From assembly GCF_000732535.1 (NCBI RefSeq), contig NZ_APNK01000035.1:1-37379 (forward strand): 37,379 nucleotides of DNA, in the 5' to 3' direction. Positions within the stretch are counted from its first letter, which is position 1. Every line of letters begins with the position of its first letter. The notes beneath the pieces are model-generated. The model had not been told where the DNA came from, did no database searches, and saw only the letters and a list, made by a program, of their open reading frames with translations. Positions 29,384 to 30,068 of this stretch are shown piece by piece. This DNA comes from Salinisphaera hydrothermalis C41B8. Lineage in GTDB: Bacteria > Pseudomonadota > Gammaproteobacteria > Nevskiales > Salinisphaeraceae. The position numbers were made by a program, and so were the translations under genes.

Positions 29384-29638
29384 GGAGAGGTGTCCGAGCG
29401 GTCGAAGGAGCACGCCTGGAAAGCGTGTGTGCGCCAAGTCGTAGACGAGGCCCGTACCGAGGGTTCGACCAGCTTGCACAGCAAGCTGACGCGAGCGCGT
29501 TAGCGCGAGTCCGGAGGATAAAAATCGCCACAAGTGATTTTTACAATCCCAGCACTGCTGGGATCGCGAATAAGCGAAGCTTGTGAGTTCGGAGGATAAA
29601 AATCGCCACAAGCGATTTTTACAATCCCTCCCTCTCCG
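29384..29638 (+). pseudogene. Interrupted tRNA-Ser(GGA), unit 1
   Basis: 29384-29468 gives the acceptor 5' strand, D arm, anticodon arm (GGA), variable arm and T stem up to GGGTTCGA. A 154-nt insert follows, and then 29623-29638 resumes with AATCCCTCCCTCTCCG, completing T stem, acceptor and discriminator base. No CCA is encoded. The variable arm differs from the other two units: the usual stem is replaced by a longer hairpin GCC-aa-GTC-gta-GAC-ga-GGC (29433-29451). Whether the RNA is ever matured is unknown; pseudogene is the cautious call. Confidence 0.75.
29469..29622 (+). repeat. T-loop insert, copy 1
   Basis: The insert is 154 nt and made almost wholly of hairpins. These are CAGCTTGC/GCAAGCTG (29470-29488), ACGC/GCGT, TAAAAATCGC/GTGATTTTTA (29519-29543), ATCCCAGCA/TGCTGGGAT (about 29546-29564), AAGC/GCTT, and a second TAAAAATCGC/GCGATTTTTA ending just before the tRNA 3' part. 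The two A5/T5 hairpins resemble terminators readable on both strands. It contains no open frame of note. Confidence 0.8.
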
Positions 29639-29686
29639 GTCGCCCGCAAGGGCGACGTATCAGTTACAATCTGCAGCCGTTTTGAA

Positions 29687-29929
29687 GGAGAGGTGTCCGA
29701 GCGGTCGAAGGAGCACGCCTGGAAAGCGTGTGTGCGGTAACCCCGTACCGAGGGTTCGACCAGCTTGCACAGCAAGCTGACGCGAGTGCGTCAGCGCGAG
29801 TCCGGAGGATAAAAATCGCCACGAGCGATTTTTACAATCCCAGCATTGCTGGGATCGCGAATAAGCGGAGCTTGTGAGTCCGGAGGATAAAAATCGCCAC
29901 GAGCGATTTTTACAATCCCTCCCTCTCCG
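29687..29929 (+). pseudogene. Interrupted tRNA-Ser(GGA), unit 2
   Basis: 29687-29759 is identical to the intact tRNA down to GGGTTCGA. The insert follows, and 29914-29929 completes T stem and acceptor stem with the discriminator G. No CCA is encoded; GTCGCCC follows instead. All cloverleaf stems remain possible with the insert looping out between T-loop positions 58 and 59. Confidence 0.75.
29760..29913 (+). repeat. T-loop insert, copy 2
   Basis: Also 154 nt and collinear with copy 1. The differences I see are all transitions (C/T or A/G), and most fall in hairpin loops or keep pairing through G-T/G-C exchange. The hairpins are the same as in copy 1. Confidence 0.8.
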
Positions 29930-29977
29930 GTCGCCCGCAAGGGCGACGTATCAGTTACAATCTGCAGCCGTTTTGAA

Positions 29978-30068
29978 GGAGAGGTGTCCGAGCGGTCGAA
30001 GGAGCACGCCTGGAAAGCGTGTGTGCGGTAACCCCGTACCGAGGGTTCGAATCCCTCCCTCTCCGCCA
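29978..30068 (+). tRNA. tRNA-Ser (anticodon GGA)
   Basis: An intact type II tRNA with acceptor GGAGAGG/CCTCTCC, D stem TCC/GGA, and anticodon stem CACGC/GCGTG with loop CTGGAAA (anticodon GGA at 30012-30014, reading UCC and UCU). The variable arm is GGTA/TACC, the T arm is GAGGG-TTCGAAT-CCCTC, the discriminator is G and the encoded CCA is at 30066-30068. It is the only unit of the array that is complete. It lies 44 bases before 4.5S RNA, an order also seen in pseudomonads. Confidence 0.97.

Follow-up and report, generated by a model that had tools for sequence, protein, structure and literature searches.

An RtT-like repetitive element probably interrupts spare tRNA-Ser(GGA) copies at TCGA^A of the T loop in Salinisphaera hydrothermalis

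Two tandem tRNA-Ser(GGA) copies in the window (the whole 37,379-nt stretch of DNA analysed, contig NZ_APNK01000035.1 of Salinisphaera hydrothermalis C41B8) are interrupted between T-loop nucleotides 58 and 59 by inserts of 154 nt, and these inserts are probably an RtT-like repetitive element that lies at TCGA^A of spare tRNA-Ser copies and has multiplied together with them, the tRNA copies being decaying pseudogenes. Elements of this kind are known from E. coli; the surprise lies in the breadth of the family, in its fixed site and in the fitted inverted arm that its relatives carry.

All parts of the locus lie on the forward strand. Copy 1 (29384-29638) begins with a 5' part at 29384..29468 that runs up to GGGTTCGA and has an altered variable arm, longer than that of the intact gene; its sequence GAGGGTTCGA ends at 29468 and is followed by the insert (29469..29622) and then by AATCCCTCCCTCTCCG at 29623-29638, which holds the 3' strands of the T and acceptor stems and the discriminator G, without CCA. 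A spacer at 29639..29686, containing a GC hairpin (GTCGCCCGCAAGGGCGAC) and a leader (AGTTACAATCTGCAGCCGTTTT), separates it from copy 2 (29687-29929), in which the 5' part (29687..29759), the insert (29760..29913) and the 3' part (29914..29929, again without CCA) were read directly in the same order, giving a repeat period of 291 nt. Both copies stand upstream of an intact tRNA-Ser(GGA) gene with CCA at 29978..30068, identified by ARAGORN and by the Rfam scan and preceded by the same leader as the interrupted copies. Direct reading therefore upheld the initial annotation in that inserts of the same length occur at the same T-loop position of two tandem tRNA-Ser units and that the third unit is continuous. 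Its statement that all tRNA stems are kept holds for the acceptor and T stems of both copies and not for the variable arm of copy 1. The intact gene is the sole tRNA that ARAGORN called in the window, copies 1 and 2 not being recognised as found; when the insert was removed and the flanks joined, as the initial annotation had proposed, a tRNA was called in copy 2 but not in copy 1. A changed variable arm of the GCGCC..GGC type is common to the first interrupted copies of several species (window copy 1, L117, L119 and L124).

Each insert is internally doubled, being made of two hairpin modules of ~77 nt with an HP3-to-HP3 spacing of 78 nt. In module 1 of copy 1 four hairpins follow one another: HP1 (CAGCTTGC/GCAAGCTG, 29470..29488), with covarying pairs in the genus; HP2 (CGA[GCGC..GCGC]GAG, 29492..29509) and HP3 (AAAAATCGC..GTGATTTTT, 29520..29542), both covered by the genus covariation test; and, between these two, HP2b (TCC-GGA-GGA, 29510..29518), covered by both covariation tests described below. 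When the window's own genome (G000) was searched with a 176-nt query, the two inserts were 95% identical to each other and the four matches were the two inserts and two 16-nt tRNA ends, with none elsewhere. A repeat dispersed within its own genome was accordingly rejected, as the insert occurs only at this locus and the order-wide scan described below gave one match in G000 at E<=1e-3. No ORF reaching 100 aa lies between 29384 and 30068, the 291-nt unit included, and the unit therefore holds no integrase gene. A consensus scan of 29200-30260 found no sigma-70 promoter or intrinsic terminator; the interrupted copies may be transcribed, because the intact gene has the same leader. A small SRP RNA gene lies at 30122-30218, between the tRNA array and dnaX.

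The search of related genomes for the insert that the initial annotation had called for showed that six further species of the genus have single modules in this T loop. A tRNA match of some kind was obtained in all 14 genomes of the genus, and an interrupted copy precedes the intact tRNA-Ser(GGA) gene in seven of them (G000, G001, G002, G006, G008, G009 and G010); outside the window's genome the inserts are single and of 67-80 nt. G003, G011 and G012 showed no interrupted copy in the sequence preceding the gene, G013 showed by eye a degenerate 3' remnant only, and the stretches fetched from G004, G005 and G007 did not contain the gene. An assembly artefact, which the initial annotation had named as a way in which its reading could fail, is unlikely, since the same arrangement recurs in six other genomes of the genus and one of these (G009) is a single-contig assembly.

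Within the genus the hairpins are conserved while the tRNA around them is not. Eight of the 11 modules were aligned, leaving out G008a, which has a deletion, and both second modules of the window; the second unit of G006, which contains a run of N, was also left out. Of 182 cells in the alignment 95.6% were paired and 18 were double-change cells, compared with 5.5 in shuffles (reached in 0/500), and there were compensatory changes in the single modules of the six other species; two measures were weaker, namely the number of pairs with double changes (6, reached by 51/500 shuffles) and of pair types (12, reached by 439/500). The acceptor stem is down to 6, 5 and 6 of 7 pairs in the interrupted copies of G010, G008a and G006a, those of G002 and G010 have T-stem changes, and only three of nine interrupted copies in the genus gave a tRNA with ARAGORN when their flanks were joined. 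The intact gene is identical in eight of the ten species in which it was read whole, G001 and G012 being the two that differ. We read the genus copies as decaying tRNA copies carrying a conserved element. One pair of genomes is informative as to how such copies come and go: downstream of the intact gene G002 and G003 share 99% identity across 150 nt; the 40 nt that precede the single gene of G003 are identical to those preceding the interrupted copy of G002, and the 40 nt preceding the intact gene of G002 are 88% identical to those of the window and 60% to those of G003. Therefore either G002 has gained, within the tRNA, a whole unit with its own leader, or G003 has lost one.

The module belongs to a widespread family, here called E, of ~75 nt and with the plan HP1 - CGA[HP2]GAG - HP2b (usually with a GNA loop) - HP3 - CA. 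In a genome of the sister genus (G014) the module occurs twice in a copy of the tRNA-Ser T arm, downstream of the intact gene; blastn with this module matched 21 of 85 genomes of the order, and tRNA genes with differing identities lie in 11 of 19 loci (L148-L166). A covariance model (R1) was built from 18 of 22 hand-picked modules, all outside the window's genus and from 12 genomes, four modules with a longer or different HP2 being left out. In its alignment 94.2% of 429 cells were paired (22-39% in slid controls), 18 of 24 pairs had double changes, and 97 double-change cells compared with 29.3 in shuffles (0/500); the 32 further pair types were not above the 31.0 of the shuffles (217/500). 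R1 matched module 1 of both window copies, at 29465-29548 (E 1.4e-8) and 29756-29839 (E 3.9e-8), which places these modules in the family, and also module 2 of copy 2 (29842-29917, E 0.011) and the Ser modules of G002 and G001. With default filters and E<=5 it missed module 2 of copy 1 and the Ser modules of G009, G010, G008 and G006, and the probable link of these four genomes' modules and of the window's second modules to the family rests on alignment and position. At E<=1e-3 R1 matched at least 50 of the 85 genomes of the order, with up to 31 matches in one genome, and at E<=1e-5 at least 97 of 276 genomes and at least 79 of 215 genera sampled from the class; both are lower bounds, at most 55 and 17 candidates per genome, respectively, having been scored.

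The sites of E were surveyed in 138 order-scan matches from 120 of 129 fetched regions, out of 150 among the matches listed (the nine regions left out were those of G081 and G082), and 11 loci were looked at in the class. Sixty-two of the 138 lie within 300 bp of a tRNA called by ARAGORN and 76 do not. Given some 50 tRNA genes in a 4-Mb genome, chance would place roughly 1% of matches so near a tRNA, an estimate that derives from this general density and not from random positions. The initial annotation had named a second way in which its reading could fail, namely that the insert is a common intergenic repeat with no relation to the position of tRNAs; in the relatives this holds for part of the family only, and in its own genome the insert occurs here only. 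Among the 62 tRNA-linked elements 48 begin exactly after TCGA, common right ends are CA|ACC and CA|ATC, and in 49 the 7 nt to the left of E recur in the neighbouring tRNA (42 of 51 lying against the tRNA and seven of 11 lying with it). In all seven of the latter, of which one (a Pro match) is doubtful, the T loop reads TTCGAAT, as a TCGA^A site would predict. E was found in both orientations relative to the tRNA, which would follow from the site being offered on either strand by the TTCGAA of T loops. In G221 a tRNA-Ser copy upstream of an intact gene carries E in its D loop, at GGTCGA^.

Among the 76 matches away from tRNAs, 10 have T-arm-like left flanks, GACA flanks occur in 16 (13 from G077) and six lie at GGGA^ATC of a palindromic repeat. 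The G077 copies (L302-L305, L307-L314 and L316), at least 13 in number and dispersed, have near-identical flanks (GACA on the left, CAACG on the right), and are perhaps parts of a longer repeat built around E. In L268, L272-L275 and L277 (G036, G041 and G044) E ends a palindromic repeat of the form CGTCATTCCCGCGCAGGCGGGA / ATCCAG, again at GA^ATCC. In L138 (G014), upstream of an intact tRNA-Ser, two repeats start as the 5' end of tRNA-Ser (GGAGAGGTGTCCGAGCGG) and depart from the tRNA near the D loop into other hairpin-rich sequence.

In many relatives the split T arm adjoins its own inverted copy, in which TTCGA reads TGAGA. By a strict test, which asked for GA followed by the reverse complement of the five nucleotides before the GA of the left flank, within ~60 nt and on the expected side, the inverted arm was exact in 15 of the 48 TCGA-flanked matches and present with one mismatch in 24 of the 48; with flanks swapped between loci it was exact in 33 of 7377. 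The layout in relatives is intact tRNA - spacer - E - displaced tRNA 3' end, often in tandem. No inverted T arm with TGAGA was seen in the window copies, where the full 5' part of the tRNA stands in its place.

The closest known counterpart is the RtT repeat of the E. coli tyrT/tyrV region (rtT; RttR RNA, RF00391). In tyrV-rttR the T-arm copy is split as AAGGTTCGA / core / ATCCTTCCCC, with the inverted arm GGATGAGAA, and R1 run with filters off matched all three E. coli rtT repeats (22.2, 20.3 and 17.5 bits; E 3.2e-5 to 4e-4 in 1.6 kb). The window copies resemble them in the core hairpins matched by R1, in the division of the T-arm copy at TTCGA^ATCC, in the tRNA 3' end that is restored beyond the core and closes the unit, and in the tandem arrangement of units beside an intact tRNA. 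They differ in that E. coli has the inverted arm with TGAGA, which the window copies do not, and in that the window insert is doubled and occupies full-length tRNA-Ser copies upstream of the intact gene, not behind it. The RtT model itself gave no match in the window at gathering and none at E<=5 in the seven element-bearing loci of the genus (the window region, L005, included), and for this reason the element is called RtT-like and not RtT. The initial annotation had proposed a new palindromic element that targets tRNAs and is copied with its host tRNA; this is close to the reading supported here, except that the kind is not new, E. coli rtT having the same plan. RF00391 matched 21 of the 85 genomes of the order, 11 over the cut-off; the best match in G000 (32.6 bits, under the cut-off) is on another contig. 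In G002 an RtT RNA lies behind tRNA-Tyr (L336, 1501-1632; 75.4 bits, over the cut-off), where R1 scores 27.0 bits at the same place, and is followed by a second, weaker unit. The available excerpts of published work mention RtT annotations in Pectobacterium (PMC4710047) and list rttR as REP-bearing (PMC12306157). Our literature search, whose coverage left out most subscription journals, returned no description of the family beyond RtT. E is like REP/RAYT repeats in being a small hairpin repeat dispersed in bacterial genomes, and differs from them in having no GTAG-type foot and in having a fixed TCGA^A boundary at tRNA sites; a transposase gene flanked by the element was not found. The palindromic elements of Rickettsia are small palindromic insertions inside genes, and E resembles them in this general description.

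We propose that each insert represents two tandem copies of E at TCGA^A, and that the unit of tRNA 3' end, spacer with leader, tRNA 5' part and E was tandemly multiplied upstream of the intact gene. E would have been moved or copied by some activity and the units would multiply by recombination within the tRNA repeats. In relatives E occupies extra tRNA copies, for the most part partial ones, beside an intact gene, as compared with full-length spare copies in the window. E would work like the E. coli rtT repeats, with which it has its core in common, and the interrupted copies, presumably non-working as tRNAs, are most likely pseudogenes.

A different reading, which we consider unlikely, is that the interrupted copies encode a functional RtT-like small RNA made with the tRNA leader and having a regulatory role, for instance as a decoy or a CsrA/RsmA sponge. 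The hairpins are indeed conserved and covarying, the leader is that of the intact gene, and RtT relatives were reported on Northern blots in Actinobacillus (PMC4986893, in excerpt). The HP3 loops of relatives are mostly NGGA and there are sub-threshold rsmX matches in L150 (34.5 bits) and L154 (29.3 bits; cut-off 56), but HP3 of the window has no NGGA loop. The pairing was examined in an alignment (A6) of 119 distinct rows fitted to R1, with the acceptor and T stems of 106 tRNAs of the same loci as the control. G-U made up 1.8% of standard pairs in A6 versus 4.9% in the tRNA stems. Its ratio to A-C was close to balance, at 45 to 25 when one loop-closing pair was left out and 47 to 52 when that pair was counted, whereas the tRNA stems gave 62 to 2. 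The loops, moreover, are kept on the E strand whichever way E lies relative to the tRNA: the GNA loop of HP2b in at least six of 10 elements in the same orientation and 32 of 49 in the opposite one, and the NGGA loop of HP3 in nine of 10 and 40 of 49. Pairing and loops speak for, without proving, a structure at the DNA level, or one in an unlinked transcript, rather than a function within the transcript of the tRNA. The decay of the tRNA body also weakens the initial annotation's option of a functional RNA with a large T loop, and the consensus scan, which found no promoter or terminator, likewise speaks against a small-RNA gene.

It is also doubtful that the units are remnants of, or minimal, integrative elements, inserted at the T arm by a tyrosine integrase, with each unit regenerating the tRNA 3' end and displacing the old one, although the att-site option of the initial annotation may still account for the origin of the tandem units. 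T arms are classic attachment sites, relatives have the displaced tRNA 3' end, and sometimes the spacer, as a direct repeat that is often in tandem, and an entire unit within the tRNA was gained or lost between G002 and G003. Against this stand the 291-nt unit without an ORF of 100 aa, the occurrence of E away from tRNAs and in a D loop, and the conserved hairpin core, which to our knowledge is not a feature of attachment sites. Nor did a phage or plasmid source emerge: nine phage and 104 plasmid records matched and none holds most of the region, the nine phage records and the 20 plasmid records listed showing tRNA-sized pieces, and two pattern scans of viral contigs gave 0 matches. A T-loop intron, self-splicing or spliced by an enzyme so that the interrupted copies give working tRNA, is highly improbable despite the exact loop position, the preservation of the acceptor and T stems in both window copies, and the odd positions at which archaeal tRNA introns can sit. 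As the initial annotation had stated, no standard intron class is apparent at this position, there being no Rfam intron family match (gathering; E<=5). Known ribozymes and riboswitches were likewise rejected, sX4, MIR1862, mir-1267, rsmX and others scoring below their cut-offs. E of relatives splits partial tRNA copies in both orientations, and the small number of joined copies recognised as tRNA (three of nine) also argues against splicing.

The RtT-like repetitive element that we favour shows signs of spread within genomes. In a set of 60 tRNA-linked elements, those at different tRNA loci of one genome (85 pairs) had an identity of 0.625, against 0.519 for those from different genomes with the same anticodon (123 pairs) and 0.531 for all other combinations (1555 pairs); 0/500 label permutations reached 0.625. 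E therefore spreads, or is made alike, within genomes; its movement is suggested by this similarity, and gene conversion could also make copies alike. More speculatively, E might be a sequence-specific mobile DNA that folds as a single strand and joins at TCGA^A, the inverted target T arm (TTCGA to TGAGA) of many relatives pairing with the split target as a built-in guide, and the RtT RNA of E. coli being one domesticated or dying lineage; we offer this as a tentative possibility. By such pairing each element would be fitted to its own tRNA, and if the guide reading is true, a tiny element would here have a novel means of matching its target. The findings connect the rtT repeats behind the tyrosine tRNA of E. 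coli, a known curiosity, with a family that is widespread, has a defined site and shows strong common structure. They also offer a testable explanation of the way in which tRNA genes acquire tandem, interrupted copies that go unreported by tRNA finders.

Neither a transposase or integrase nor an excised form of E was found. Y1 transposases were absent at E<=1e-5 from the E-bearing genomes G019, G080, G082, G032, G020, G054 and G045, a cut that may overlook diverged Y1 genes, since the RAYT-like gene of the window (E 8e-4) itself falls outside it. RAYT as the mobiliser of E is unsupported, the RAYT-like gene of the window being flanked by other repeats and not by E. This ORF lies at 34301-34798 on the reverse strand and scores 20.0 bits with Pfam Y1_Tnp, under the 23-bit cut-off; the repeats around it are four inverted-repeat pairs of the GTAGGTCGGATTAGCGCAGCG type at 33929-34188 and 34969-35287.
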